From: Microcaldota archaeon
Lineage (GTDB): Archaea > Micrarchaeota > Micrarchaeia > Anstonellales > Bilamarchaeaceae
Direction: 5' to 3'
NCBI GenBank assembly: GCA_029557835.1
Contig: JAKQHW010000026.1
Coordinates: 1-35,674 of the forward strand
DNA length: 35,674 nt
This document shows positions 14,882 through 34,763 of this stretch, piece by piece. The position numbers and the translations under genes were made by a program. The notes below the pieces were generated by a model. It did not search any database, was not told the DNA's origin, and was given only the letters and a program-made list of their open reading frames with translations. Every line of letters starts with the position of its first letter. Within the stretch, counting starts at the first letter, position 1.

Positions 14882-16084
14882 ATGGCCGGGGAAAAGGAAT
14901 ATGAACTTAAGAAGATGGTGCGCAAGCTGAGGGAGTTCAGCGGCAGCGGCACCCAGCTCATCTCGGTATACATCCCGGCCGGCTATCCAATCCACGAAAC
15001 GGGCGGGAAGCTCCGAGAGGAGGTCTCCCAGGCCTCTAACATCAAGTCCAAGCAGACGCGGACCAACGTAACGGACGCGCTTGAGAAGATAATAAACTAC
15101 CTGAAGATGTTCAGGAAGACGCCAGACAACGGAATTGCGATATTCGCCGGCAACATCTCGGACAACCCCGCAAAGACCGACATCCAGCTCTTCTCGCTTG
15201 AGCCCCCGAGCAAGCTCAACGTTTCCATATACCGGTGCGACTCCCGCTTTTTCCTCGAGCCCCTCGAGCGCATGATGGAATCCAAGGATTCCTACGGGGT
15301 GATCGTGCTTGACGGGCGGGAGGCTACGCTCGCGATAGTCAAGGGCACCGACATCCAGGTCGTGGACCGGCTCATCTCCCACGCGCACGCAAAGGTCCGC
15401 AAGGGGGGGCAGAGCCAGAGGAGGATAGAGCGCCTGATAGAGGAGTCGATAGAGAAATACTACAAGCGGGTCGGAGAATCGGTGGACAAGCACCTCCTCG
15501 GGAGGGTAAAGGGCATAGTGGTGGGCGGCCCCGGCCCCACAAAGGAATTTTTCGTAAAGATGTCCCCATTCAATTACCAGATAAAGGTGATGGGGGTCGT
15601 GGACACCGGCTATACGGACGATTTCGGGGTGAGGGAGACACTCTCAAAGGCCGAGTCCATCCTGGAGGGGCAGGAGATGGTGCGCGAACGCGCACTCGTG
15701 GAGCGCTTCATAAAGGAGGTCGTGAAGGAGGGGCTTGCCACCTACGGGCTGAGGGAGACCATGGAGGCGGTCGAGACCAAAAGGGCCGACACCGTTCTGG
15801 TCTCAGAAGGCCTCACATTCAACCTTGTCGAGTGGAAATGCTCATCCTGCGATGAGTCCCTCTCCAGGCCGACCAAGGACGAGCCGAAGCCGGTAAAGTG
15901 CCAGAAATGCGGCGCGGAGATGGAAGTAATGGGCGTGATCCCGCTCATTGATTACCTGATTGAGAACGCCGAGCAGAAGGGCATAAAGATGGAGGTGATA
16001 TCCACCAATTCGGTCGAAGGCAACCAGTTCCTGCACGGATTCGGGGGGATAGGCGCCTTCGTCAAATACAGGAAAAACTATTGA
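14882..16084 (+). CDS. prf1: Archaeal peptide chain release factor 1 (aRF1)
   Basis: 400 residues, near the usual ~410. It recognises all three stop codons and triggers peptide release. Seen: stop-codon-reading motifs NIKS (53-56) and YRCDSRF (117-123, YxCxxxF), and the catalytic GGQ at 175-177. The C-terminal domain has a mini zinc-ribbon-like CSSC ... CQKC pair that would contact partner GTPase/ABCE1. Its stop codon overlaps the convergent 16078 gene by 7 bases. Confidence 0.97.
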   Translation: MAGEKEYELKKMVRKLREFSGSGTQLISVYIPAGYPIHETGGKLREEVSQASNIKSKQTRTNVTDALEKIINYLKMFRKTPDNGIAIFAGNISDNPAKTDIQLFSLEPPSKLNVSIYRCDSRFFLEPLERMMESKDSYGVIVLDGREATLAIVKGTDIQVVDRLISHAHAKVRKGGQSQRRIERLIEESIEKYYKRVGESVDKHLLGRVKGIVVGGPGPTKEFFVKMSPFNYQIKVMGVVDTGYTDDFGVRETLSKAESILEGQEMVRERALVERFIKEVVKEGLATYGLRETMEAVETKRADTVLVSEGLTFNLVEWKCSSCDESLSRPTKDEPKPVKCQKCGAEMEVMGVIPLIDYLIENAEQKGIKMEVISTNSVEGNQFLHGFGGIGAFVKYRKNY

Positions 16085-16704
16085 GCTTCTTCCCCCTCTT
16101 CCGGATTTTCAGGCACATCCGCACCCGTCCCGTTCTGCTCAACACTGGTGTTCAATGCGGGCGGGATTGCGGGGAACGACGGCCCCGCCGGGCGCGCGCC
16201 TATGTTGCAATCGAACTGGACGTAGTTCTCCCCTATGCCCACCACCAGCTCATTCTCAAAAATCCTGGTCTCGTTGTATTTCCTTATGTACACTATCGAC
16301 TTTCCTGGCGCATCCCTCGCCGAGCCTATCTCCGACAGGCACTCGGAAAGCGGGACTGTCTTCGCGGTCCCGTCCTCCAGCGTGGTTATGCATTCCGAAT
16401 CAAGCGAGAATATCCTCTTGTCTATGTTGCCTATCGCCGTGCTGTATGATATGTCCACCGCGCACTGCATTATGTTCCGCCTGATGCTGTTCTCGCTTGC
16501 GCCCCTCAGGTCCATAACCACATACATCTCGGATGATGATGCAAGGTTGTCCGCGAAATCCTCCATATATGCCTCTTCCTTTCCGGCCCATAGGTCCGCT
16601 TCCTCCCCCTGGGGCTGCATGAAATATATGTAAGTGCCTATCGCAACCGCCAAAACCGCCAGCACAACGGCCGCCACAGTTTTCCCGTTCACTCCATCAC
16701 CCAT
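16078..16704 (-). CDS. Membrane-anchored extracytoplasmic protein with four-cysteine domain
   Basis: 208 residues. An N-terminal helix (about 9-28) serves as signal anchor, followed by an exported domain. Cysteines occur in IMQC, SECIT, LSECL and QFDC; the tail is Glu/Pro-rich with NGT and NTS sequons. The spacing and surrounding pattern match the C-terminal domain of the 710-residue protein encoded just upstream, suggesting a duplicated domain. The gene overlaps that protein's 3' end by 16 bases, so the two are one operon. Function unknown. Confidence 0.68.
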   Translation of the reverse strand: MGDGVNGKTVAAVVLAVLAVAIGTYIYFMQPQGEEADLWAGKEEAYMEDFADNLASSSEMYVVMDLRGASENSIRRNIMQCAVDISYSTAIGNIDKRIFSLDSECITTLEDGTAKTVPLSECLSEIGSARDAPGKSIVYIRKYNETRIFENELVVGIGENYVQFDCNIGARPAGPSFPAIPPALNTSVEQNGTGADVPENPEEGEEAQ

Positions 16705-18821
16705 TCGTTTCCAGGGCCGGCCTGCGCCTGTGCCGCGCCCGCCTCAACCGGGACCGAAAGCATTGTGGCGACCTCGCAGCCCTGGAAATACTGCTCGTCC
16801 CCGGTGAATATGGCATTGTCCACGAAAACCACCGAGAACTCCGGCCTCGTTGGAATTGCGGAATACTTGAGCGTTATCATCGGCTCCTCGACCGCATTGT
16901 AGCAGCCCTCAAGCGTGCCCCCCTGCATCGTTATGCAGTCCCCGTTCACCTTTTCGTATATTGTTACCTGCCTCGGCGACAATTTGTCCGCCATCTTCTG
17001 TGCGCAGGATTTCATGTGCGCCAGCGCCCCAGGGCTGACGCCCTGCCCTTCGACGATTATCGCGACATTCCCGGATTTTGCGAGCGAAGCCCGGTATTCG
17101 GAGAAGTCCGCATCCGATGACGCCCCCTTCAGCGTGAAGTACGCGCCGGCGGAAACCGCTCCGACCGCGAGCAGGCCCATCCCTAGGAAGACGAATCCCA
17201 CAAACATGGCGCCCCTGCTTTTCCTCCTGCTGGCCACCCTTGCGAAAAAGAACAGGAACCCCAGCGCAAGCAGCGAGCCAAGCGAAAAGAATGAAAGAGT
17301 GGACAGCATAAGCGGCGTGAACTCCGAAAGGTGCTCCTTGTCCTCCCGGCTCATTGGCTGCACCGCAGCCGCTACGTCCAGCACCCCCTCGTTGGTGTTC
17401 CTTGCCGCGGCCATGAAAGGGCTCATGTAAACGCTTCCAGAGGAAACGCCCCTGACAATCGGCTCGGCGGCCCGGGTTATCTCCAGGTAGCCATCCCTCA
17501 TCTCCGTATACCTCTCCGGGGCCAATCCGGCCACGAACCCGCGGTCCAGGTTCTTCTTCCTTGCGGAAAGAGCAGCCGCAGTTGCCGCCTGCTCTTCGTT
17601 CAGGTTCGAGGTTTCCAGTATGAATATCGAAACCGCGGCCTCCCCCCGGGCCTGCTCGGTTGAATTGTAAATCTCCCACTGCCCCGGGACTGCGGCCCCC
17701 ATCCTCGCCGTCCTGGCCCTCAGCTCGTCCATCGATGCGTTTATGTCCGCGAACTGCCCGGCCAGAAGGTCCGCATCAACCTTCGCAATCAAGGCGTCGA
17801 TCCTGTCCGCATCCGCCTTCACTGAATTATTCGCGACCACCGCTAGCAGCGCCCTCGCATCCGAAACCGCCCTCTGGGATGCCGCCTTCTGCGGGTCATA
17901 ACTCGAACGGTAATACGCGCGCGCCGCATTGTCCTCAGCCATCCTCACCCGCGCATCCGACCTCTCGCCAATCAGCGTACCGAGCGCGCTGTAGTCCCCC
18001 AGCATCTCGGTCTTCCTCAACAGAGCATCTATCTTCACTTCCGCGCCCTCAAGGTGCTCCTCGTCTATGAGTATCCTCGGGCATAGCCCGATGCAGTCCC
18101 TGCACCTGTCCTCGCCCCTCGGGAGCCTGAACCGGGTGGATTCAAGGGCCGCCTCATCCTCGAGCATCCCCGGTATCATCGCCTTCAGCTCAACCAATGA
18201 CTCCCTTATGTTGCTGCCGTTCATATTGTCAAAAAGCTCCTCCGCCCTTTTCTCGCATTCGGTCAGGCGGTTGCTCGCAAAAGAGAACGACTCTATGTCC
18301 GGCTGTATGTCCGAAAGCTTTGAGCATCCGAGCGCATCCCCGTATTCCTCGCACATGAAGAGCGCGGTATAATGGCAGTTGCTGCTGTTCGTGCATGGGA
18401 ACACATTGAGGAACATGCTGTACCTGCAGACCTCCTCCTCCATGCCCATCCTTTCCTTCATCCCCGGCAGCTGTACTTTTGTGTTGGGATAATCATCCCC
18501 GTTGTTCCTGCTGTCATGGTATGCCCCGAAGTCCGCCCTCAGCGCCGCAATCTCCGCGTCGGTTGGATAGTAAAGGTCGGTGAAATGCTTGTTCACGACC
18601 CGCCCTATGAGCGCATGGTCCGTTATTATGCTGTGGCTCCCGTCAATGAGGAAGGTCGGCTCCCCCCCGATATACACCAGGGTGTAAGGCACCCCGCCAA
18701 CAATAAAGGTGCTCTGGTCCGTTATCGCCTCGCCCGGCGCAAGATACTGCGTAAGGTCGGCGGAGAATGCTGCGGGGAGCAGCAGTAATAGTCCTACTAC
18801 GAGGCTGGTGGTCGGTCGCAT
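16689..18821 (-). CDS. Large exported membrane protein, unknown
   Basis: 710 residues with a clear signal peptide (about 1-20, ending AAFSA). An N-terminal ectodomain with cysteine clusters (residues ~130-170 and CRDCIGLC near 245) is followed by a long helical, alanine-rich region with NxS/T sequons. Two membrane helices near 520-545 and 555-580 flank a basic loop (ASRRKSRG), and a C-terminal domain with four cysteines resembles the next gene's product. Topology suggests an S-layer-associated or cell-surface assembly. The ATG lies 27 bases from a strong TATA box, implying a leaderless mRNA. Confidence 0.72.
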   Translation of the reverse strand: MRPTTSLVVGLLLLLPAAFSADLTQYLAPGEAITDQSTFIVGGVPYTLVYIGGEPTFLIDGSHSIITDHALIGRVVNKHFTDLYYPTDAEIAALRADFGAYHDSRNNGDDYPNTKVQLPGMKERMGMEEEVCRYSMFLNVFPCTNSSNCHYTALFMCEEYGDALGCSKLSDIQPDIESFSFASNRLTECEKRAEELFDNMNGSNIRESLVELKAMIPGMLEDEAALESTRFRLPRGEDRCRDCIGLCPRILIDEEHLEGAEVKIDALLRKTEMLGDYSALGTLIGERSDARVRMAEDNAARAYYRSSYDPQKAASQRAVSDARALLAVVANNSVKADADRIDALIAKVDADLLAGQFADINASMDELRARTARMGAAVPGQWEIYNSTEQARGEAAVSIFILETSNLNEEQAATAAALSARKKNLDRGFVAGLAPERYTEMRDGYLEITRAAEPIVRGVSSGSVYMSPFMAAARNTNEGVLDVAAAVQPMSREDKEHLSEFTPLMLSTLSFFSLGSLLALGFLFFFARVASRRKSRGAMFVGFVFLGMGLLAVGAVSAGAYFTLKGASSDADFSEYRASLAKSGNVAIIVEGQGVSPGALAHMKSCAQKMADKLSPRQVTIYEKVNGDCITMQGGTLEGCYNAVEEPMITLKYSAIPTRPEFSVVFVDNAIFTGDEQYFQGCEVATMLSVPVEAGAAQAQAGPGNEWVME

Positions 18822-18910: not shown

Positions 18911-19056
18911 AGAAACGTGGGGGAAGCTAATTCGCTCCCCACCCTCCTTCACTGCAATTCCCTGCAACGGGGCGTCGACCGAACCCCCCCATTTTGAGGG
19001 TTCATTCTGACCCTCCTTCACTTCGCTTGGCATCGCTTTGCATGTACTCCTTACGC
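18911..19056 (-). repeat. Intergenic repeat element, copy B
   Basis: 146 nt. The core 18984-19056 aligns ungapped with copies A and C, including GGGTCAGAATGA and the opening GCGTAAGGAGTAC. About 40 bases further on, the hairpin 18917-18942 (GTGGGG-AGC ... GCT-CCCCAC) is followed on minus by a weak T-tract (GTTTCTTC). The core's first bases overlap the last codons and stop of the 19051 gene, so it lies at that gene's 3' end and upstream of the 18821 promoter. Confidence 0.78.
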
Positions 19057-19740
19057 ATTTCTGATCAGTTTTACTATATTTTCTCTCCCGCGCTTTATCC
19101 TCTTCACGTATCCCTGCGCTTCCAATCCCGAAACCAGAAGGCTCATCTTCGCCTCCGTGCATTTCATTATCTCGCGCAATTCCTTCTGGTTCCTCATCCC
19201 CTCGCTGTTTCCCAGTATCTCCAGCACTTTTTTCTCTTCCTCATCCAGCTTTTTCTTTTCCAAATGAATTTTCTCCACCGCCCCCTCCAGCATTTTCCTT
19301 TTCATGAAGAAATACGCAAGCGCAACTACCGCAACACCCAAGGCCGCCCCCAAAAAAATTAAAGGCGCCAAATCGTGCTCCTGCTCCGGAATTTCCTCAT
19401 CCAACCCCGGCACATCAAAACCAACAACGGCCTCGAACTCGTCCGGTGCAAACAGCACGAAATCATAAGAGGCGCCGCCCTCCCCGAGCATTATCCGGTC
19501 TTCGGCGTATCCCCCCAGTTTCCCTTCCGGGTAATAGAACGCCTTCACAGTGTACTCCCCGGCGGGAATGTCCATCGCATATGTTCCGTCCGTTGAAAAT
19601 GCCTGGTAGGTGGAGGCCCCCTCCGCCTTCACCACAACCCCCTGCACAGCATCAAAGCTGTCCATGCTGTAGATGCTCCCGCTCAGGTTCGCGGCATGCA
19701 ATGCAGCAAGAAGCGCAAAAAGCGCCCAAAAGGCCCTCAT
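19051..19740 (-). CDS. Membrane-spanning winged-helix regulator with exported beta-sandwich
   Basis: 229 residues. A signal peptide (1-16) is followed by an exported domain (about 18-115) with the GEYTVKAFYYPEGK pattern of carboxypeptidase-regulatory/PEGA-like beta sandwiches. One membrane helix (about 126-147) leads to a Lys/Glu coiled coil (150-170) and a cytoplasmic winged-helix domain (170-229; NQKELREIMKCTEAKMSLLVSGLEAQGYVKRI, shown here as the helix-turn-helix and wing). This topology is known in archaeal membrane-bound transcription regulators and suggests signal sensing outside and DNA binding inside. Palindromes in its promoter may be its own operator. Confidence 0.75.
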   Translation of the reverse strand: MRAFWALFALLAALHAANLSGSIYSMDSFDAVQGVVVKAEGASTYQAFSTDGTYAMDIPAGEYTVKAFYYPEGKLGGYAEDRIMLGEGGASYDFVLFAPDEFEAVVGFDVPGLDEEIPEQEHDLAPLIFLGAALGVAVVALAYFFMKRKMLEGAVEKIHLEKKKLDEEEKKVLEILGNSEGMRNQKELREIMKCTEAKMSLLVSGLEAQGYVKRIKRGRENIVKLIRNA

Positions 19741-19760
19741 GAGTCCCTATTCGTAAAAAA

Positions 19761-19784
19761 GCTTTCATAAAGCTTTCGCGAAAG
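19761..19784. promoter_or_regulatory. Adjacent palindromes in a divergent promoter
   Basis: Two abutting inverted repeats: GCTTTCATAAAGC (19761-19773, perfect arms of five) and CTTTCGCGAAAG (19773-19784, perfect 12-bp palindrome). The first overlaps the likely minus-strand TATA (CTTTATGA), the second lies just before the plus-strand TATA (GATTTAAATG at 19789-19798). This geometry suits an operator controlling both genes. Confidence 0.5.
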
Positions 19785-19788
19785 TTTC

Positions 19789-19798
19789 GATTTAAATG
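19789..19798 (+). promoter_or_regulatory. TATA box of the 19829 operon
   Basis: GATTTAAATG gives an expected start near 19820, a 9-base leader before ATG 19829. Confidence 0.5.
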
Positions 19799-19828
19799 CC
19801 CGGTTCGAAGCCGGTGCTGGTGATTTGC

Positions 19829-20797
19829 ATGAAAAAGGCGATTTGGGCGCTTGCCCTGTTCGGGCTGATGTTCGCGGCCGCAAACGGCGCGGGCGCATCC
19901 CAGGACGTGAGGCAAAGCGTATTGGAGATGAGGTATGCGCAGATGGAATGCAGGGCGAATTTCATGTATGCATCCATGGGCAGCGCAGAGGACGCTGGCG
20001 GAAACCTTTCCGGTGACCGGAGAAACATGGAATCGGCCATGACACATCTGAGGGCATATGCCGTTTCAGGAGACGGCGCTGGTTTCAACCAACATATGGC
20101 CCAGACGCAAAACGCGTTCTCGGTAGCGGTGCGCAACATACATGGCGCAAGGGCCGGGGCGCTGAATGCCGCGGGCTCATGCAACGGCGGCGATGGCGGG
20201 CAAGGCGGCCAGGGCCAGGGCGGTGCACCAGTGTCCATATCCCCGGGATGCCAGGCAAGGACCCAGCTTTTGAACCAGCTCCGCACACGGCACGATGCGG
20301 CAAACTCAGAATATGCCGAGTGCATGAAGTCTGCCGTAAGGGGCAGGGTAAGGGCGGAAGTTTCGGAATTCAAAGGATGGGCAGCAAGGAGCCGGACGGC
20401 TGTAAGCGGCATGGAATCCCGCGGCTATACGGTTGCAGGGCTGAACAGGATAATGAATCAGGCAGAGGCCGAGGCGGATGCGCTTGAAGCGGAAGCGAGT
20501 TCCGGCACGGATGCCGATGCCCTCCTTGAGAGAAGGCAGGGGCGCCTTGGAAAGATATTCTATCTCTGGGCCCAGTTTCAGCAGGAAAGGATCGGCCTCC
20601 TGCTCGACCGCTTCCAGGGGAGGACCAGCGGATACGAGACCGAGATTGCGGAGATAAGGGCGATACTCGCCAATGCCGCGAGCCTTGGAGATGATGAGGC
20701 CTACACCGCAGAAGAGGCGCAGGAGTCCAGGCGGCTTGTCGGAGTTGCCGCGCAGCAGTTCGGCGCGCTTGTCGGAGAAGCGAGGGGAGAGGAATGA
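19829..20797 (+). CDS. Secreted helical protein, unknown
   Basis: 322 residues from ATG 19829; an upstream in-frame ATG at 19796 lies before the predicted transcript start. The signal peptide (1-21) ends at NGAGAS. The mature part is helical and alanine-rich, with a Gly/Gln-rich linker (GGDGGQGGQGQGG, about 121-133) separating two helical halves, and five or so cysteines. No family recognised. Its stop overlaps the next gene's start (ATGA), indicating an operon with a lipoprotein and a HEAT-like protein. It faces the membrane-bound regulator, which may control it. Confidence 0.7.
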   Translation: MKKAIWALALFGLMFAAANGAGASQDVRQSVLEMRYAQMECRANFMYASMGSAEDAGGNLSGDRRNMESAMTHLRAYAVSGDGAGFNQHMAQTQNAFSVAVRNIHGARAGALNAAGSCNGGDGGQGGQGQGGAPVSISPGCQARTQLLNQLRTRHDAANSEYAECMKSAVRGRVRAEVSEFKGWAARSRTAVSGMESRGYTVAGLNRIMNQAEAEADALEAEASSGTDADALLERRQGRLGKIFYLWAQFQQERIGLLLDRFQGRTSGYETEIAEIRAILANAASLGDDEAYTAEEAQESRRLVGVAAQQFGALVGEARGEE

Positions 20798-21054
20798 AGG
20801 AAGGGCTTTTTGCGCTCCTTTCCGTTTCCTTTCTTCTGCTGGGATGTGCCGGTGGAGGCGCCGGGATAAGTTCCGGCGAAATCCCCCCTGACGAGATTGG
20901 TTTCGGCCTGGAGGATGACGGAACGTCCCTCCCACAGGCAGTCCCTTCAGGCACCGTCAGCTCCATGGACATCAGCGACGAGGACCTGGCCCTTGATGAC
21001 CTGTACATAGACCTTGGGGATGACAGCACGGCGCTTCCGGAGGCCGTAAGTTGA
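20794..21054 (+). CDS. Small predicted lipoprotein
   Basis: 86 residues. The N-terminal hydrophobic segment ends in a good lipobox, LLLGC (cysteine at residue 18), followed by a Gly/Ser spacer and an acidic tail containing a repeated theme: DDGTSLPQAV near 42 and DDSTALPEAV at the C-terminus. The internal repeat might bind a protein or metal; that is inference. The start overlaps the preceding stop by four bases. Confidence 0.68.
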   Translation: MKEGLFALLSVSFLLLGCAGGGAGISSGEIPPDEIGFGLEDDGTSLPQAVPSGTVSSMDISDEDLALDDLYIDLGDDSTALPEAVS

Positions 21055-21064
21055 GGTGAAGAAA

Positions 21065-21451
21065 ATGATGAAGGAGTTCGAGTCCGGTGCAAATGCCGCG
21101 GAAGGCAGGAAACCCGTCCGCGCCAGCCCCCTGCTCGGGAACCAGAGGATGGCAAGGCTGGTCAGGGACCTCTTCAGCGAGGCCCGCAATGAGAGGGTTT
21201 TGGCTGCACGGGAGCTCAGGCACATCGCAGGCAAGGGCGGGGACATATCCGAGGCATTCCCCGCCGTCCTCGCCTCCCTCCGCCAAAGGGAGCGCGATGT
21301 TGCGGACAACCTCCTTTGGGCGGCCAGGTATGCGCACAGGAATGGCTTCGACATATCCAATATGCTCCCATCCATCGCCATTCTGCGCAATTCGGGGGAT
21401 GGAACCACCCGCGGGCTCGCAACAATAATCTGCGAAACCGCGGGAGGGTAA
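21065..21451 (+). CDS. HEAT-like helical protein
   Basis: 128 residues from ATG 21065 (a GTG at 21056 and an ATG at 21068 are alternatives; GAGGTGA sits just upstream). It is predicted soluble and all-helical: helices with ERVLAARELRHIAGKGGD and DVADNLLWAARYAHRNGFD resemble HEAT units, similar in style to the 9809 gene. As the third gene of a secreted protein/lipoprotein operon but lacking a signal, it probably acts on the cytoplasmic side. Function unknown. Confidence 0.6.
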   Translation: MMKEFESGANAAEGRKPVRASPLLGNQRMARLVRDLFSEARNERVLAARELRHIAGKGGDISEAFPAVLASLRQRERDVADNLLWAARYAHRNGFDISNMLPSIAILRNSGDGTTRGLATIICETAGG

Positions 21452-21454
21452 CCC

Positions 21455-21473
21455 TTTCTTTATTTTTTCCCTG
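21455..21473 (+). terminator. Oligo-T terminator
   Basis: TTTCTTTATTTTTTCCC follows the stop codon of the 21065 gene by three bases and overlaps the end of the convergent amidohydrolase gene. It fits hairpin-free archaeal termination. Confidence 0.55.
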
Positions 21474-22770
21474 CCCCCAGCACTTCCGCCGCCCTTTCCA
21501 TTATTTCATGGGAGTTCGCGACAAGGATTTTCCTCCCCTCCATCAGCACCTTCCCGTCGCAGACCACCGTGTCCACGGCCGAAGGGAACGCCGAATACAC
21601 AATTTGGCTGACGGGCTCGTTCAGGGGTATGAACGCGAGATGGTTCGTGGAAAGCAAAAGCAGGTCCGCCTTCTTCCCCTTCGCGAGCTCCCCCGTATCC
21701 GAAAACCCGAGCGATTTCGCGCCCATGGATGTCCCCATTTTGAACGCTTCCCCATACCTCATCGCGTTCGGGTCGTGGTGGTACACCTTCTGCATCAGGC
21801 AGGCGAGCCTCATCTGCTCCATCATGCTGAAGTTATAATATGCCGCGACATCGGTCCCAAGCCCCACGGCTATCCCCATCTTTAGCATTTTGGGGATGCG
21901 GGCGGTACCGCTCGCAAGGAACATGTTCGAGCCCGGGCAGTGCGCAACCTTCACCTTCCTTTTTTTGAGAAGCTCGAGCTCCTTGTCCGTGCACCATATG
22001 CAATGCGCAAGCAGGGTCCTCTCATCCAGAAGCCCCAGCTTCTCGAAATGCCTCACAGGGCCGGTCCCATACATGTCCACGTCCCCCTTCCTCTCCAGCA
22101 CGTTCTCGTCCGTGTGCGTGCGGAAGAAAACCCCGTATTTCCTTGCCATCTCCCCCGCCCCGCATAGCAATTCATCCGTGCAGGTGAGCGCAAACCTGGG
22201 GGTGAGCGCATAATGCAGCCTCCCGTTCCCCTTCCCGTGCCATTTCCTCAGCAGTCTCTCGCTCTCCCTGAGCGCGAAATCCGTATCCTCCTCCTGCCCC
22301 GGGGGAGAGTTCCTGTCCATCAGCGTCTTCCCAATCATCCCCCTAAGCCCGAACCTCTCCGCTACCCTGAACGCCTCCTCAGTGTGCCTGACCGCGGTGA
22401 AGTCCGAAAAGGATGTGGTCCCACATCTTATCATCTGCAAATATGCGACCTCAGCGCAGGCCCTCGCCCTTTCCCTGTTCAGCCCCCCTTCCCACTTCCA
22501 TATGTATCTCTTGAGCCACCCGAGCAGCGTCATTCCCGGGGTCAGCCCTTTTGTAGCCACCTGGTAGGAGTGCATGTGCGCGTCCACAAAACCAGGGCAC
22601 ACTATCCTGTCCTCCCCGCCGATTGAATCCGAGAACTTGTGCCTTCGCCTCAGCTCGCTTCTTTTCCCCATGTCCACTATCCGGCCCCCCTCGACCGCCA
22701 CCGACCAGTTCTCCCTCGCCCCGCCGGGGGTTAGCACCCACTTTCCCCAAAATTCCCAGATTTTCCCCAT
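21460..22770 (-). CDS. ATZ/TRZ-type amidohydrolase, guanine- or adenosine-type deaminase
   Basis: 436 residues from ATG 22770. Metal ligands of the amidohydrolase barrel are visible: H65-M-H67, H219 in RTHTDE, H256 in LLAHC, and D307 in GLGTD. TPRFALTC (190-197) and the GWLKRYIWKWE helix resemble guanine deaminase; SNMFLASG and MEQMRLACL resemble the S-adenosylhomocysteine/methylthioadenosine/5'-deoxyadenosine deaminases. It should hydrolytically deaminate a purine or purine nucleoside. The exact substrate is unresolved. It follows the small membrane protein gene by four bases, so they form an operon. Confidence 0.82.
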   Translation of the reverse strand: MGKIWEFWGKWVLTPGGARENWSVAVEGGRIVDMGKRSELRRRHKFSDSIGGEDRIVCPGFVDAHMHSYQVATKGLTPGMTLLGWLKRYIWKWEGGLNRERARACAEVAYLQMIRCGTTSFSDFTAVRHTEEAFRVAERFGLRGMIGKTLMDRNSPPGQEEDTDFALRESERLLRKWHGKGNGRLHYALTPRFALTCTDELLCGAGEMARKYGVFFRTHTDENVLERKGDVDMYGTGPVRHFEKLGLLDERTLLAHCIWCTDKELELLKKRKVKVAHCPGSNMFLASGTARIPKMLKMGIAVGLGTDVAAYYNFSMMEQMRLACLMQKVYHHDPNAMRYGEAFKMGTSMGAKSLGFSDTGELAKGKKADLLLLSTNHLAFIPLNEPVSQIVYSAFPSAVDTVVCDGKVLMEGRKILVANSHEIMERAAEVLGAGKK

Positions 22771-22774
22771 TCCA

Positions 22775-23104
22775 TCACTTCCCCAGCACTGCAATGGCCG
22801 CCGCCACCCCGGCAAGCAGAAGCGCGAACATGTTCACGGGCCCGGGCATGTTCTGGAATATCAGGTAGTTCATCACAAGCGTTGCCAGTATCAGCACAGC
22901 CGTCCAGATTATGTGCGCGGTTATGAAACTGCTTTGAGCAGTCCCGTCGTGGTATCCCCAAGCGATGAAATACTGCGCAAGGAGGAGGATAGGCACCATC
23001 ATCGCAAAATTCCTTATGTTGAACTCGTTCTTTGAAAGCCATCCGTTGCCCAGCTGTATGCCCAGGGCTCCCACCAGCAGCATGATCACAAATATGTATT
23101 CCAT
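22775..23104 (-). CDS. Four-helix small membrane protein, DMT/SMR-like size
   Basis: 109 residues from ATG 23104, with GGGGGTGG eight bases upstream. Four hydrophobic segments (about 3-20, 31-48, 60-82, 87-107) are connected by short loops. Length, helix number and a late helix with LLAGVAAAIAVL recall small multidrug-resistance or half-EamA transporters, but the hallmark glutamate in the first helix of SMR exporters is absent, so function is uncertain. It is cotranscribed with the deaminase, so metabolite transport is a speculation. Confidence 0.62.
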   Translation of the reverse strand: MEYIFVIMLLVGALGIQLGNGWLSKNEFNIRNFAMMVPILLLAQYFIAWGYHDGTAQSSFITAHIIWTAVLILATLVMNYLIFQNMPGPVNMFALLLAGVAAAIAVLGK

Positions 23105-27934: not shown

Positions 27935-28993
27935 TCATATCATTGTCGCGAATATCGACTGCAGGAAAGATGACACCACGAAATAAACCATGTATGCCAC
28001 CACCAGCATGAACGGGAAGAACTTCAGCCCCTGCGTCTTGGCGCCGGTCTGTATCGTCCCAAGCAGCAGCGACGCGATCAGGCACGTCACGAATATGGTC
28101 GCCACGCTGAACCACTGGAACTCGTCCGAGGTTATTACCGGCGCGGAAGGCTGCACAAACGTCATCTGGGGCACCTGCCCGCCCAGCCCGCCCGGAGGCA
28201 GGTAGGAGAACGCGATCGCAAGCACCTCTATCAGCCTGCTCGCGACCGAGAACAGGAACGGGGTCCCCAGCACGGACGCAAAAACGAGGAATATCACATA
28301 GACCAGCAATGTGGACGCTATGTCCTTCTTCTGTATCGCCACCTCCCTTGCATCCTCCGCTGTTATTTCCAGTATCTCCGCGACCTCCCCCCCGGTCGCC
28401 ATCGCCTGCTTCACAAGCAGCACGGTCCTCTCCAGTATCTTCGAATTGAACCTCATCGCGAGCCTGTCCAGCGCCTTTTCGAACGGCTCCCCGCTGAACG
28501 AGCTCTTTATCACATTCTTCACTTCTATGGAAAGTATCCCGAACTCGGGCTTCGCCGCATACCACATCGCCTGGTCCACGGTCATGCCGGAACGCACGTT
28601 CGCCGAGATGAGGGCGAGGAAATCTGGCAATGCCGCCTCAACCGCGGACTTGCGCGCCTCCCCCTGCAGCTGCAGGAACACCCAGGCGAGCATCCAGACC
28701 GAGAACGTGACCGCGCCCGCCGCAACCAGCAGCGTGAGCAGGTATATCGCGAAATCCGGGAGGTAGAAGCCCTCCCCCATCACCGCGAGGAGGAAGTTCT
28801 GCAGCACCGAATAATTGAGCATGACCAGGAAAGCGAACACCGCGAGCAGTGCGGTTATCAGTATCAGGAAGCCGGCGAAAGCCTCCGCGGAATGGCCGTA
28901 CCCGGCCCCGCGAAGCATCCTCTCCATCCCCCTTATCCTCTCCCTTGAGAGGAGCCTCCCGACCGCCTCATAAAAGTTGTTGAACATCATCAT
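27935..28993 (-). CDS. Pilus platform membrane protein (TadC/FlaJ-like), second copy
   Basis: 352 residues. A type II secretion F-like domain lies at about 120-245: LPDFLALISANVRSGMTVDQAM, shown as helix starts, plus GGEVAEILEITAEDAREV. Hydrophobic helices flank it (about 40-62, 80-112, 232-270, 300-350). Such proteins form the inner-membrane platform that couples the ATPase to pilin assembly. Three consecutive ATG codons follow GAGGG, and the third has the best spacing. Its stop codon overlaps the Shine-Dalgarno region of the pilin gene. Confidence 0.88.
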   Translation of the reverse strand: MMMFNNFYEAVGRLLSRERIRGMERMLRGAGYGHSAEAFAGFLILITALLAVFAFLVMLNYSVLQNFLLAVMGEGFYLPDFAIYLLTLLVAAGAVTFSVWMLAWVFLQLQGEARKSAVEAALPDFLALISANVRSGMTVDQAMWYAAKPEFGILSIEVKNVIKSSFSGEPFEKALDRLAMRFNSKILERTVLLVKQAMATGGEVAEILEITAEDAREVAIQKKDIASTLLVYVIFLVFASVLGTPFLFSVASRLIEVLAIAFSYLPPGGLGGQVPQMTFVQPSAPVITSDEFQWFSVATIFVTCLIASLLLGTIQTGAKTQGLKFFPFMLVVAYMVYFVVSSFLQSIFATMI

Positions 28994-28996
28994 CCC

Positions 28997-29884
28997 TCAT
29001 ATAACATATTTCGGCCTCGAGCTCTCCACCATCGCCAGGAACAGGAACTGCACTACCGAAATCATCACGAACACCAGCAGCAGTATCGAGGCGTCAATCC
29101 CGAACCTGGACGAGCCTATGAGCGAGAGCAGTATCACCGCGAAAGCCAGCCCCAGCGACGGGAAGATTATCCCGAAAATCATGTAGAACATCACCAGCGG
29201 GTTCAGCTTCTGCCCGTACGCCTTCAGCGCGATCACCTGCTCCCTGAACACCTGGTTGAGCACGACCTCCAGGGAGTCCGCGACGTCCGAGCCCGAGTTT
29301 ATCGCGTTGGCTATCTGCAGCATTATCCTGTTGAAATCGTTCGAGGGGCAGTTCTGGATGACCTCCCTTATCGCCTGCGTCATCGACATCCCGAGTGTCA
29401 CCTTCTCCACTATGTGGTTGAACTCCATGCTTACCGCGCCGTATCCCCTCGAGACGCCCACCAGGGAATCGAAGAGCGGCATCCCGGATTTGAGCGCAAT
29501 CAGCAGGTGCCTACCCGCGAACACCAGCTCGTAGTCTATGTCCCTTTTCCTTTTCGTTATCTTCACGTCGGGGTACAGCATGAAATACTGGTAGCACATG
29601 AAAATGTAGGCGAGGAAGAGCGGGGCCAGCCATATGGCTTCGACATTTATGGATTCGAAGAAAAAGAACGTCAATACGGTGAGCACCACCGCGCCGATTA
29701 GCGCGGAAACCACCACGCCGTTCAGGAACTCCTCCGGGCCCTTTTCTATCCCGGCCATCGTGAGCTTCTTCTTCATGTTCGGGTAATACGGCATCAGCCA
29801 TTCGGACACGGCCATCAACGGCTTCGCGCCCTTGCCCTTCTCCCGCACGGGGAGCGCAACCGGGGTAACTTTTGTCTTTTCCAT
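28997..29884 (-). CDS. Pilus platform membrane protein (TadB/FlaJ-like), first copy
   Basis: 295 residues with a type II secretion F-like domain around 125-235 (RHLLIALKSGMPLFDSL; NSGSDVADSLEVVLNQV). Helices at about 55-75 and 80-100 precede it and two follow (~235-285). The 28993 gene encodes a second, diverged member, which recalls the TadB/TadC pairing rather than a single fused archaeal FlaJ. GGTGGTGAG is an SD site in front of ATG 29884. Confidence 0.88.
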   Translation of the reverse strand: MEKTKVTPVALPVREKGKGAKPLMAVSEWLMPYYPNMKKKLTMAGIEKGPEEFLNGVVVSALIGAVVLTVLTFFFFESINVEAIWLAPLFLAYIFMCYQYFMLYPDVKITKRKRDIDYELVFAGRHLLIALKSGMPLFDSLVGVSRGYGAVSMEFNHIVEKVTLGMSMTQAIREVIQNCPSNDFNRIMLQIANAINSGSDVADSLEVVLNQVFREQVIALKAYGQKLNPLVMFYMIFGIIFPSLGLAFAVILLSLIGSSRFGIDASILLLVFVMISVVQFLFLAMVESSRPKYVI

Positions 29885-29901
29885 CCGCTCACCACCTATC
29901 C

Positions 29902-31275
29902 TTATCCACCGCCCGTATTTATGCCTTTCCGCGCCCTTATGCGCCTGGCTTCCGCGAGGGCCTCCTCCCTCGCCATCTCCCCTCTCGAATATTTGGAGTA
30001 TTCCAGCGGCTCCTCCGCCTGCAGGAGCGCCAGCAGGTCCTCTTCGGTCTCGAACCCTGCCGCAGGGCCGCCCCTAGCCTCCGCCTTCCTCTTCTCCACT
30101 TCCGAATCTATGTCGCTCCATACCGCCTGCCTCAGGGAGAGGAACTCCGCGGCGTACGTGTCCGCCGCCTTCTCGGCCATTTCGCCCGCCCCCTTCAGCT
30201 TCCCCTTCTTCTCAAGCTGCCCGAATTCAGAGGAATGCTTGCCCACAAGGTATTTCTCATAGCTGGACGCAAGCCCGCCCACCTGCTCCCTGAGCTGCTC
30301 CGCCCTGGAGACGAAAGCCGGTAGCGCATCCGCCGCCTTCCCAAGCGCCGCCTCCTCCTCAAAATATTTCACCAGGGGCGCGAAGGCCCTCTCATACGCC
30401 TCGTTCACCGCCTTCTTCGCGGCCGCCAGCTCGTATTCCTGGTCGTTCCTCACGACCGCCATGATGTCCGCCTTGGGCGCGGCCGCACCCGCGGCCTTCT
30501 TGCCCGCCTCGGACAGTATCGTCTTGAGCGCCACTATCTCCTTCTTTATCTCCTCTCTCCTCTCGTTGGATTTCTCCCTGAAAAGCTCGCGCGTGAGCTC
30601 GAGCATCCTCTTCTTCACTTCCTCCGTGTCCACCTTCTTCCCGGCCTTGACCTCGCTCCCGAACTGCTTCTCTATCCTTTCCACCGTCTCAGTCGCCCCC
30701 TCCAGGGGCGAGACCATCAATATCGGCGGAATCCTTATCCTTATTTCCGGAACCTGCGTGGCCGCCCGCGGCCTTGGCGGCGGCGCCGCCCGCCTCTCCG
30801 CGATTGCCACCGGCACTTCTCCCCTGCCCTTTTCCTCCTCCTCAAATTCCGGTTTTTCCTCCCTCTTCTCTTCAAATTCGACTTCTCCTGCCCGGGCTTC
30901 CTCTTTTGCGGGCCCGATTTCCATTTCCGGCTCGGGGGGCGGGGGCGCAGGAGGCGCTGCCGCCTCCACTTCTTCCCTGCGCGGCACCATCGCCTCCATG
31001 ACCGCGCTGACCTTCTCCTCCGCGGGGGCCGCGGCAGGCGCCGGCGCTGCAGGCGCCTCTGCCCCGTACATCTTCATCAGCATCTCGCTGCCCGCAATGA
31101 CCTTTTCCACACGCCCGTTAAGCGTGAGCGCCTCTTCATAGCCCATCTCGGAGAACTCGGGCGGCGAGAACTCTATCCTCCTCCTGGCCGGCCCCCCCTC
31201 CCCTTCCGGGGCGGAATATTCCAGGGCCTTTGCCTCCACGGAACGGACAATCCCCGCCGCTTCCTCAAACTCCAT
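29902..31275 (-). CDS. Pro/Ala/Glu-rich coiled-coil protein of the pilus operon, unknown
   Basis: 457 residues. A short N-terminal domain (1-72) is followed by a low-complexity linker rich in Pro, Ala and Glu (about 73-180), a short conserved-looking stretch (VPEIRIRIPPILMVSPLEG near 185-203) and a long helical, coiled-coil region to the end. No signal peptide or membrane helix, so it should be cytoplasmic. It lies between the ATPase and platform genes, suggesting an adapter or regulator of pilus assembly. No family recognised. Confidence 0.68.
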   Translation of the reverse strand: MEFEEAAGIVRSVEAKALEYSAPEGEGGPARRRIEFSPPEFSEMGYEEALTLNGRVEKVIAGSEMLMKMYGAEAPAAPAPAAAPAEEKVSAVMEAMVPRREEVEAAAPPAPPPPEPEMEIGPAKEEARAGEVEFEEKREEKPEFEEEEKGRGEVPVAIAERRAAPPPRPRAATQVPEIRIRIPPILMVSPLEGATETVERIEKQFGSEVKAGKKVDTEEVKKRMLELTRELFREKSNERREEIKKEIVALKTILSEAGKKAAGAAAPKADIMAVVRNDQEYELAAAKKAVNEAYERAFAPLVKYFEEEAALGKAADALPAFVSRAEQLREQVGGLASSYEKYLVGKHSSEFGQLEKKGKLKGAGEMAEKAADTYAAEFLSLRQAVWSDIDSEVEKRKAEARGGPAAGFETEEDLLALLQAEEPLEYSKYSRGEMAREEALAEARRIRARKGINTGGG

Positions 31276-31278
31276 CTA

Positions 31279-32865
31279 TCAGAACACCCATTTCTCGTTC
31301 CTCTTCACGCTGTCCAGCACCTCCTCCCTGTTGAGGTAGTAGTGCGAGACAATCGAGCCGACCTCGTTGACCGACTCATACCCGTTCTTCACCATCCAGT
31401 TTAGCACATCGACCTTCTCCCAGACGTTCTCCTCTATCTCCTTGTCCGTGAGCCCGGAATACAGGTGCAGTATCTCGGAAATCCTGGACGCCCTCCCCAC
31501 CTTCGGGGTCTTGTCCGCCTTCGCGTCCCACCTGTAAACCACGTTGTATTCTCCGTTCTTGTGCACCTCCGCGAACTCCAGCGTCCTCCTGAGGTTGAAC
31601 CTCCTGTGCCTGAACTGCACCACCACTCCCGCAAGCGCGTCCAGCATCTCCTCCGGCACGTTTATCGGCGGGTTGGTGAGCCTGGATATGGCCTGCTCCG
31701 TGTTGTCCGCGTGCAGCGTCGCGTACACGCTGTGGCCGGTGTGCATCGCCTCGAAAAGTATCTCCGCCTCCTTCTGCCTCCTGACCTCCCCGACGATTAT
31801 TCTGTCCGGCCTCTGCCTGAGCGCGTTCACCATCAGGTCCAGCATGGTTATCTCGCCCTTCCCCTCCGGATTTGGCTCCCTCGTCACCATCGGCACCCAG
31901 TGGAGGAAGGACGGGAGGGTGAGCTCCCTCGTGTCCTCTATGCTCACTATCCTCTGGTTCGCGGGGATGAGCCCGGCAAGCGCGTTGAGGAAGGAAGTCT
32001 TTCCGCTTCCTGTGCCGCCCGCCACCACCAGCGAGAGCTCGTTCTGCACGCACAGCCATATCATGGCCGCGACCTCCGAGGTTATCGTCTGGCCCCTTAT
32101 GAGGTTTGTTATGGTCCAAGGGTTCTTCGAGAACTTCCTGATGACCATTGTATTCCCGAAATTGGAAACCGGGAATAGCGTCGCGTTCACCCTGTCCCCG
32201 GTGGGGAGGTGCGCGTCTAGAAGCGGGGTCAGGGTGTTTATCTGCCTGCCCACCTTCCTCGCCACCAGCGATGAGAAGTCGTATATCTGCTCCTCGTCCT
32301 TGAGCCTTATGTTGGTCTTGCACCATCCGTGCTTCTTATGGTATATCCACACCGGCTCGCTCGAATTGTTGACCGCAATTTCCTCCAGGAAATCATCGTG
32401 TAGCGGGGTCTCAAGCTCGCCCAGCCCGAGCGTGCTCTGCACGAGGTAGGACGCGAGTATCCCCTGCTTGTCCTCCGAGAGCATCGGAAAGTTCCTCTTC
32501 AGGACTCTCGCCGCCGCCTCCTGGAATTTCCTCTTGACCTCCGGCACCTTCTTCGGGTCCAGTATCTCGGTTATGTCCAGCTTGACCTCGGTTATCAGTT
32601 CGCCCCTCAGCTTCGTTTCAAGGAGGAGCTTGGTCCCTCCCGCGATGCCCGGTATCGAGACATTGTACATGGGCACGAACCCGCCCCTCATCTCCACGGT
32701 TATCTCGACAGGGATGTTCTCGCTGAGGAAGCTGTAGGAATCGACCACCTTTTCCCTCTGCCTCTCGCGCGGCTCCACCGGCGCGGGCTCGTCCTCGAGC
32801 GGCGCCGCCGGCTCTTCCCTGAACCTGCTGACAATCCCCTTTATTTCCTCTTTTCGCTCATCCAT
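31279..32865 (-). CDS. Type II/IV secretion-type pilus assembly ATPase (TadA/FlaI family)
   Basis: 528 residues, typical of FlaI/TadA/PilT superfamily. The N-terminal region (1-180) precedes the ATPase core: Walker A GGTGSGKTS near 283-291, an Asp-box SIEDTREL, Walker B-like DRIIVGEVR near 352-360, and the His-box HTGHSVYATLHAD. It powers pilin insertion by acting on the platform proteins. An SD-like GGTGAGGG lies upstream of ATG 32865. Its partners are the two F-like proteins of the same operon. Confidence 0.94.
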   Translation of the reverse strand: MDERKEEIKGIVSRFREEPAAPLEDEPAPVEPRERQREKVVDSYSFLSENIPVEITVEMRGGFVPMYNVSIPGIAGGTKLLLETKLRGELITEVKLDITEILDPKKVPEVKRKFQEAAARVLKRNFPMLSEDKQGILASYLVQSTLGLGELETPLHDDFLEEIAVNNSSEPVWIYHKKHGWCKTNIRLKDEEQIYDFSSLVARKVGRQINTLTPLLDAHLPTGDRVNATLFPVSNFGNTMVIRKFSKNPWTITNLIRGQTITSEVAAMIWLCVQNELSLVVAGGTGSGKTSFLNALAGLIPANQRIVSIEDTRELTLPSFLHWVPMVTREPNPEGKGEITMLDLMVNALRQRPDRIIVGEVRRQKEAEILFEAMHTGHSVYATLHADNTEQAISRLTNPPINVPEEMLDALAGVVVQFRHRRFNLRRTLEFAEVHKNGEYNVVYRWDAKADKTPKVGRASRISEILHLYSGLTDKEIEENVWEKVDVLNWMVKNGYESVNEVGSIVSHYYLNREEVLDSVKRNEKWVF

Positions 32866-32881
32866 ATGCCCTCACCGGTGA

Positions 32882-34585
32882 TTACCCTACATCCCACAGT
32901 CTCTTTATTAAATCCTTTAATTCTTTCCTTTTTTGCTCGAACTCGCCCTGCTCCTCCGCGGTGAGCCTTATGCGCTCCTCCCTATCTGCGGCCTCCTTCG
33001 GGCCCGGCGCCCCCTCCCTCAATGAGATGAGCTCAGCCTCCCTCGCGAGTATGCGTATGTTCTTCTCGATCCTCGCCGCCTTCTCGTTCAGCTCCGTGAT
33101 AAGCGCCCTTGCCTGCTCGAGCCCCTCCTTCTTCTCCTCCAGCTCCGCAAGCATGCGCACCGCGTCCTTCACGTTCTCGCTCCCCAGCGCCTCAGTCAGG
33201 TCCCCCAGCTTCCTCGTGGTCTCACCCTTGAGCGCAACCAGCTGCTTCGAAACTGCCTCGCTCTCCTCATTTATTCGTTCCAGCTGCGCGAGATGCTGGT
33301 CCACAGAAAGCTTGGTCTTCGCCTTTATCTTCTGGAAAGTGGAATATGTGGCCGTCTCCTCCTCCATCGCTTCCTTCACTTCCTTGGCCTGCTTCGACAT
33401 CGCCTTGCCTGCCTTCTCCACCTCGCCCCTGAGCTCCTCCAGCTCGCGCACCACCTCCCCGAACTGGAGCACATCCCCGGTCACCGCGCTCAGGTTCCTC
33501 TCGAACCTCTTGTACTCCTCAACAAGCTGCTCCTCCCTCCTCTCTATCCCGGACACCTGCCCGACGAGCGTGTCCTTGTCCGGGAGCTTCTCCATAACCT
33601 CGTGCGCCACCTTCAGCGCGTCCTCGTACTGCGCCACAAGCTCCAAATCCTCCTTCAGGTGGTTCTCTATCTCGGGCATGTTCCTTTTTATCGCCTCAAG
33701 CTTCGAGTAGTTCTCCTCCAGCTCCTTCCTCACGGAGGTGGAACTCTTGGACACGTTCGCCATCAGCTCCCTCACGGTCTGCAGCACCTCTGCGCTCTGC
33801 CTGAATTCCGAGATGAGTTCCTTCACGCTTCTGGATTCGTCCCTCACCTTCATGAATTCGCCCTGAAGGCGCTCCATGTCCCCCTTCAGCCCGGAAACCT
33901 CAACCCTCTTGTCCCCGCGCGGCGCCCTGCTCAGCGCAAGGTCCGCCTTGGCCAGCACGTCCGCCACGCGCCTCTCCAGCGCCTCCACCCTTGACCTGTA
34001 TTCCTCCAGGTCCGCGGCTTTCTTCCCCGTGCCCTCCCTGCCCATTATCTTCTGGTGTTCCCTCAGCTGCTTCTCCAGCTCGGAAACCGACTCCCTTATG
34101 GAGCCGACCTTGCCGGCCAGCTCCTCGATCCTATCCATCGTCTGCTTGGATACATCGCCCCTCCTCTCGCCCATCCCCTTCACTTGTTTCGAGAGGTCCT
34201 CGAGGCTCCGGAAACTCTCTTCAAAATGCGAATAGAGTTTTTCTATGCTCTCCGCCTGCTGCCTGAGCTCCTCCCTCCCTTTCCTCTGCACCTCCTGCAG
34301 CTGCCTCAGGTCGCCCTCCAGCACCGCTTTCCTCTTTTTGAATTCCGCCTTCTCGGCCTTCACCTGCTCCGGGGCCGGGGAAACCCATACAAGCCTCACC
34401 TCAGTGAGCTTGTACTCTATCCGTATCACCTTCTCATCCTCGAGCACGTGCGCCCAGTCCTCTATGGTCGCCGGCGGTATGCCGAGGAGCTTCGCCGCCA
34501 TGTTGAGCTCTACCTGCTTTTTCTCCTGCACAAGCCGTATGAGTGAGTCTACGCCCGTGGTTATCAGCAGTTCGTCGAACTCCAT
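32882..34585 (-). CDS. Winged-helix plus long coiled-coil protein, first gene of pilus operon
   Basis: 567 residues from ATG 34585. The N-terminal ~65 residues look like a winged helix (LNMAAKLLGIPPATIEDWAH, then VLEDEKVIRIEYK), followed by ~480 residues of heptad-rich coiled coil with no membrane helix. An extended open frame upstream crosses repeat copy C and has no ribosome-binding site. The TATA box at 34608-34615 gives a start at about 34586, so the mRNA is leaderless. It may organise the pilus machine or act as a regulator; both are inference. Confidence 0.72.
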   Translation of the reverse strand: MEFDELLITTGVDSLIRLVQEKKQVELNMAAKLLGIPPATIEDWAHVLEDEKVIRIEYKLTEVRLVWVSPAPEQVKAEKAEFKKRKAVLEGDLRQLQEVQRKGREELRQQAESIEKLYSHFEESFRSLEDLSKQVKGMGERRGDVSKQTMDRIEELAGKVGSIRESVSELEKQLREHQKIMGREGTGKKAADLEEYRSRVEALERRVADVLAKADLALSRAPRGDKRVEVSGLKGDMERLQGEFMKVRDESRSVKELISEFRQSAEVLQTVRELMANVSKSSTSVRKELEENYSKLEAIKRNMPEIENHLKEDLELVAQYEDALKVAHEVMEKLPDKDTLVGQVSGIERREEQLVEEYKRFERNLSAVTGDVLQFGEVVRELEELRGEVEKAGKAMSKQAKEVKEAMEEETATYSTFQKIKAKTKLSVDQHLAQLERINEESEAVSKQLVALKGETTRKLGDLTEALGSENVKDAVRMLAELEEKKEGLEQARALITELNEKAARIEKNIRILAREAELISLREGAPGPKEAADREERIRLTAEEQGEFEQKRKELKDLIKRLWDVG

Positions 34586-34605
34586 GATTCCCCTTTTAAA
34601 AAGCA

Positions 34606-34620
34606 CCTTTATAAAAGTTG
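34606..34620 (-). promoter_or_regulatory. TATA box, leaderless promoter of pilus operon
   Basis: Minus strand CAACTTTTATAAAGG. Start predicted near 34586, next to ATG 34585. A second TATA-like CTTTTTAAAAG follows at 34593-34603. Confidence 0.65.
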
Positions 34621-34625
34621 CGACC

Positions 34626-34763
34626 AAAAACGCGGGGAGGGCAAAAAACCCTCTTCGCCCCGAGCCCCATATATCGGGGCACGGGCCGAATCCCCCCATT
34701 TTTAGGTGTCATTCTGACCTCCTCCCACTTCACCAGGCAACGCTTTGCGCTCCCCCCTTGCGC
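34626..34763 (-). repeat. Intergenic repeat element, copy C
   Basis: 138 nt. The core 34691-34763 aligns without gaps with the other two cores (GAGGTCAGAATGACACCTAA on minus). A hairpin (34633-34662; stem CGGGG plus AGGG with a small bulge) follows, then TTTTT on the minus strand after CCCCGCG. A second potential hairpin, GCCCC-ATATATC-GGGGC, lies between. The sequence AAAAACGCGGGG is identical to that of copy A. Confidence 0.8.

Follow-up and report, generated by a model that had tools for sequence, protein, structure and literature searches.

TTRs (ToxR, CadC, TcpP, and others) unite a DNA-binding domain and a transmembrane (TM) segment in one protein; they are mostly single-pass, and archaeal ones exist as well (PMC10269533). 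In Sulfolobus acidocaldarius, ArnR and ArnR1 are membrane-anchored HTH one-component regulators of a surface-structure promoter. In ArnR, an HTH at the N-terminus is combined with a putative HAMP and sensor domain and with two TM helices at the C-terminus; the surface-structure promoter contains paired inverted repeats, TCGAC-N5-GTCGA, both boxes of which are required for binding (PMC6396743).

The regulator analyzed here lies in the window, the whole 35,674-nt stretch of DNA that was examined, from a 0.94-Mb draft genome that rpoA1, rpoA2, and aRF1 identify as archaeal. Like the TTRs, it is one protein in which a predicted DNA-binding domain is joined to at least one TM region. ToxR and CadC carry their DNA-binding domain at the N-terminus and the outside domain at the C-terminus; here, the arrangement is the opposite, and the promoters are of the archaeal TATA type. 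Compared by architecture with ArnR, the winged helix is C-terminal, a single TM helix is combined with a signal peptide, and the sensor domain is exported; because the domain order and the number of TM helices differ, the regulator is not classed as ArnR. The two systems are alike in having inverted-repeat boxes in the promoter of surface proteins, different in sequence but similar in layout. ToxRS-type co-component systems couple a membrane regulator to genetically linked envelope partners; this is an analogy only, and the partners here are the proposed regulated output and are divergently encoded. The general kind, a transmembrane one-component regulator, is known, but the output is undescribed, and the locus looks like a previously undescribed compact surface-sensing circuit. 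We put the probability of a dedicated membrane-spanning regulator–operator–operon circuit at about 0.75, a figure that covers neither the direction of control nor the tether nor the signal discussed below.

Features of the regulator–operon locus

19051..19740, minus strand: regulator ORF, 229 aa, transmembrane one-component (ORF list, DUF7343 match, homologues family-wide)
19066..19242, minus strand: DUF7343/MarR-like winged-helix DNA-binding domain (profile match, invariant positions)
19300..19377, minus strand: predicted TM helix, regulator residues 122-147 (Kyte-Doolittle maximum 2.51, single strong segment)
19761..19773, no strand: palindrome 1 (outer), GCTTTCATAAAGC, read from the sequence; conserved part, the CTTTC half-site 19762-19766
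19764..19771, minus strand: TATA-like sequence of the regulator, TTTATGAA, inside palindrome 1, about 31 nt before the regulator ATG
19770..19787, no strand: extended inner palindrome and proposed operator, AAGCTTTCGCGAAAGTTT, 8/9 pairs match
19773..19784, no strand: palindrome 2 (inner), core CTTTCGCGAAAG, CTTTC-NN-GAAAG
19790..19798, plus strand: operon TATA box, ATTTAAATG, 39 nt 5' of the ATG, as in most orthologues
19819..19824, plus strand: Shine-Dalgarno sequence GGTGAT of the secreted-protein gene, with a similar GGTG in orthologues
19829..20797, plus strand: predicted secreted protein of 322 aa, all-alpha, without a Pfam or NCBIfam family
20794..21054, plus strand: predicted lipoprotein, 86 aa, with lipobox LLGC (C18), linker, and acidic C-terminal motif DISDEDLALDDLYIDLGDD
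21056..21451, plus strand: HEAT/ARM-type cytoplasmic protein, 131 aa, by profile match to ARM-type repeats
21452..21469, plus strand: T-rich stretch directly 3' of the operon, a possible archaeal terminator, read from the sequence

The regulator begins with a signal-peptide-like stretch, continues with a beta-type domain that is exported and a single TM helix, and ends with a winged helix. An earlier note, made from the DNA letters, had described it as a membrane-spanning one-protein regulator of 229 residues with a winged helix, and this description holds: there is one TM segment (residues 122-147), and the winged helix matches Pfam DUF7343 (PF24034) with 48.3 bits against a curated cutoff of 27.6 (E=9e-13). 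The same domain is matched by 15/15 regulator relatives, the alignment of 15 homologues shows the invariant positions QKE...S....LE...K..K.GR, and the regulator is the only DUF7343 match in the genome. Basic residues directly following the TM helix fit the positive-inside rule, so that the predicted topology places the beta-type domain outside and the winged helix inside. The designation of the exported beta-type domain as a beta sandwich is based on a match to CarbopepD_reg_2 with 14.4 bits and E=0.04, below the Pfam cutoff of 32.2; weak CarboxypepD_reg-like matches were obtained for 3/15 members of the regulator family. Literature searches for DUF7343 and COG2512 were empty or irrelevant, and no paper naming DUF7343 was found.

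The first operon gene encodes a protein predicted to be all-alpha (pLDDT 81, pTM 0.70, single-sequence model), whose cysteines C41 and C165 do not vary among 21 aligned relatives. Comparison with Pfam, NCBIfam, PDB sequences, and PDB folds yielded nothing convincing. Of the 43 genomes searched within the family, 32 contain the gene; elsewhere in the order, its occurrence is sporadic. In the genome of the window (G000; the other G-numbers denote the genomes compared), there are fragments of a second paralogue, C27:4281-4568 and C35:5-592, the positions of which suggest one gene split between contigs.

The ORFs of the secreted protein and the lipoprotein overlap by 4 bp (ATGA). The second product was correctly identified as a lipoprotein, with a hydrophobic signal and the lipobox cysteine C18; a motif related to DISDEDLALDDLYIDLGDD also occurs earlier in the protein. 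Across 20 lipoproteins neighboring secreted genes, the lipobox G-C is invariant, and there is little in common beyond the lipobox and the clade-specific C-termini, namely, I/L-S/T-D/E-E-D-L...DL.IDL.DD in most of clade I, ISEE.IIEP-like in clade II, and LF.IDT..P-like in clade III. Most likely, the lipoprotein would hold the secreted protein at the membrane via this clade-specific acidic motif, an idea that draws solely on gene pairing and motif conservation.

For the third gene, the ATG at 21065 (128 aa), behind GAGGTGA, appears the more likely start. Its profile matches an engineered repeat protein with E=4.6e-8 and, at about 1e-4, designed Armadillo repeats; its relatives read as longer repeat proteins, a Pfam search gave no match, and the single-sequence model produced generic helix bundles alone. 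The HEAT label originally given to this product is, accordingly, supported as HEAT/ARM-type by the profile match. Short HEAT-type proteins related to it are expanded in G014 (L183, L188, and other loci).

The inner palindrome as a candidate operator

The regulator and the operon are divergent and separated by 88 bp. The two palindromes that had been proposed to abut over or beside both TATA boxes are indeed present, sharing one base (19773), but the outer one is not conserved as a palindrome. The inner core ends 5 bp from the operon TATA box, which has no recognisable BRE. The regulator TATA-like sequence has comparable counterparts in G011, G014, and G056, and its distance of about 31 nt to the ATG suggests a leaderless regulator mRNA. 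An RNA-level hairpin was rejected because neither transcript is expected to contain the inner repeat: the repeat is located 5' of the operon TATA, and the regulator mRNA, judging from the position of its TATA, would be leaderless. Dinucleotide shuffling of the intergenic region, repeated 300 times, never produced CTTTCNNGAAAG with 0 mismatches; for the score of the 9-bp-arm palindrome, such shuffles gave P=0.02.

Among orthologues, the operon TATA mostly lies 37-40 nt 5' of the start codon, and the TATA-aligned intergenic regions share the composite CTTTC-NN-GAAAG-TTT-NN-ATTTAAA, with 0 mismatches in G000, G001, G004, G011, and G056, 2 in G014, and 3 in G016. Hence, of the two palindromes that the earlier note suggested seeking in relatives, the inner one keeps its fixed spacing 5' of the operon TATA (exact in 5 genomes, variant in 2); in G012, G013, and G057, it is degraded or unrecognisable despite the kept gene order. 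The outer one retains palindromic form solely in G011 (11-bp core) and elsewhere is represented by its CTTTC half alone, and was therefore rejected as an independent conserved operator. This half-site (19762-19766) is 11 bp from the operator CTTTC in the window; across relatives, it is found 11-12 bp upstream of the operator or, in G001 and G004, at 21 bp with CTTCC at 11, that is, a spacing of roughly one or two DNA turns.

Within the 0.94-Mb genome, the palindrome+TATA composite is present a single time. When 11 whole genomes were scanned with the 24-base composite, with at most 3 mismatches allowed and a backwards control, nine matches were returned. All six with at most 2 mismatches map to the regulator/secreted intergenic region; the three with 3 mismatches are the G016 intergenic site, the G056 palindrome read in reverse, and a stray in G020. 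As the backwards control also produced 3 matches at 3 mismatches, this level is noise. Clade I intergenic regions contain 19 CTTTC/GAAAG half-sites compared with 4.2 expected, a number reached in 0/300 shuffles. A chance origin of the inner palindrome was rejected on the basis of the shuffles, the conservation in relatives, and the genome-wide uniqueness.

Gene order in related genomes

The divergent regulator|secreted order was found in G000, G001, G011, G012, G013, G014, G016, G056, and G057; in G004, the regulator and secreted halves are located at the ends of two contigs. Counting this split case, the same gene order, with a small lipoprotein gene after the secreted gene in each case, is kept in 10 genomes from seven genera, as the earlier note had proposed to look for. 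Of the three-gene output that it envisaged, the first two genes are kept together in these 10 genomes, but the third belongs to the module in this genus alone: apart from the window, only G001 and G004 have a HEAT/ARM gene after the lipoprotein. The secreted gene of G007 has neither a regulator nor a lipoprotein next to it.

Regulator orthologues in G005, G017, G040, and G044 face unrelated exported proteins, and those in G003, G005 (second copy), G006, and G009 face lipoprotein or exported genes; this variety points to a general rule of a membrane regulator facing a gene for an exported protein. At L048, L050, L132, and L133, regulator orthologues stand opposite large unrelated secreted proteins, apparently the same switch with another output. 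A further regulator subfamily, L056-L059, is located opposite genes for lipoproteins or other exported products; some of these loci have half-sites of the GAAAG type ahead of TATA.

A second putative regulator–element pair

Clade I and clade II regulators separate in the tree at 100/100 support; they share DUF7343 but differ in the exported domain. In G005, G024, G042, G043, G044, G053, and others, clade II regulators lie upstream of paralogues of the secreted+lipoprotein genes, and the respective promoters carry GTTCC-N4-GTTCC-N8-TATAAATA-NN-GTTCC, where GTTCC repeats flank the TATA box. A scan of 14 genomes for this element identified nine places, all upstream of such secreted genes, and zero control matches. 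GTTCC/GGAAC half-sites number 30 against 2.2 expected in clade II and 0 in clade I; CTTTC/GAAAG half-sites in clade II number 3, with 3.0 expected. In clade III, the secreted+lipoprotein pair occurs without a regulator. The regulator clade and the DNA element thus co-vary while the output remains constant, which strongly supports a dedicated membrane one-component circuit; we regard this co-variation as the strongest evidence for what appears to be a real regulatory link.

In the loci L118-L128, clade II regulators are mostly directly upstream of the secreted+lipoprotein paralogues. At G043:C8, a secreted paralogue carries the GTTCC element with no DUF7343 gene in the 7 kb upstream examined, suggesting a trans-regulated second copy (L122:7100-7260). 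At G009:C58, the element is also present, and other genes intervene between the regulator and the secreted gene.

The proposed circuit and alternative explanations

In the proposed circuit, the winged helix, probably as a dimer, would bind the inverted repeat CTTTC-NN-GAAAG close to the operon TATA, on its 5' side, as we infer from conservation, uniqueness, and the clade-specific co-variation. An extra half-site roughly one or two DNA turns upstream would reach the regulator's own TATA. The sole output would be the operon for the secreted helical protein and the lipoprotein, plus the HEAT/ARM protein in this genus. Occupancy would most likely activate the operon and repress the regulator's own promoter; we lean slightly toward activation of the operon over its repression. 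The exported domain would read an envelope or surface condition, possibly the state of the secreted/lipoprotein pair; the nature of this signal is a tentative suggestion. More speculative, and rather doubtful, is the notion of a closed surface feedback peculiar to this archaeal order, in which the lipoprotein-held secreted protein would be read by the exported domain, and in the building or rewiring of which two different sensor domains and two unrelated operator codes would have come to serve one and the same output pair.

Whether the regulator activates or represses the operon is the sole difference between this circuit and a variant to which we assign somewhat less than even odds, namely, that dimers anchored in the membrane would block TFB/TBP at the palindrome and let go only upon a signal from outside. 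Such blocking is compatible with the 3' arm of the inner palindrome touching the BRE position and with the outer palindrome covering the regulator's own TATA, and the clade II sites on both sides of the TATA rather suggest repression. The clade I site, however, lies wholly upstream of the operon TATA, the lack of a BRE there fits a promoter that needs help, and ArnR, the membrane regulator known from archaea, activates transcription at inverted repeats (PMC6396743). Regulated intramembrane proteolysis, whereby a signal would cause the winged helix to be cut from the membrane and to act as a soluble factor, seems unlikely: the charged linker of about 20 residues (147-166) between the single TM helix and the winged helix would permit cleavage, but it is not conserved among orthologues, and inspection of the module showed no protease gene.

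Two readings would dispense with the link between the regulator and the palindrome or the operon. Since the BREs of archaea often resemble GAAA and the inner palindrome adjoins the TATA at a constant distance, it might be a lineage-specific core promoter element (a BRE/TATA variant), with the regulator acting elsewhere. This is improbable, however, given that GAAAG[CT]TT before TATA is absent from the 19 TATA-bearing background promoters taken from sampled stretches of the same genome and is present in only 4/127 TATA-bearing promoters of the relatives' loci, all 4 facing a DUF7343 regulator; furthermore, the composite is essentially unique per genome, and clade II has another element in the same place. 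Still less credible, to the point of being very improbable, is that the gene order was kept merely by slow genome rearrangement. Some outer neighbors are also kept between genera, such as the purP-like gene adjoining the regulator in G012, G013, G014, and G057, but the link recurs in clade II with a different geometry and a different element, and the GTTCC element accompanies secreted paralogues that have no adjacent regulator (G043:C8) or are separated from it (G009:C58).

Surface sensing in small-genome archaea is little known. The dedicated circuit favored here offers a case where, in each of two independent clades, sequence alone sufficed to match the regulator, DNA element, and output, with an exported protein/lipoprotein pair that has no described family. 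It also predicts a rule for the DUF7343 family, whereby clade I would read CTTTC-NN-GAAAG and clade II GTTCC repeats.

Genomic surroundings

In G001 (L043:8911-9210) and G004 (L044:15679-15981), a small lipoprotein gene ends beside the 3' end of the regulator gene; none was noticed in the window. On the other side, an amidohydrolase gene (5'-deoxyadenosine deaminase-like; 21460-22815, opposite strand) lies between the operon and a Na/Ca exchanger gene, which in G001 directly follows the HEAT/ARM gene. Elsewhere in the window, positions 16078-18821 encode tandem exported/membrane proteins of 710 and 208 aa for which no family was found, and positions 27935-34699 contain a cluster of a type IV pilus/archaellum-type ATPase and a membrane protein together with a large coiled-coil protein.
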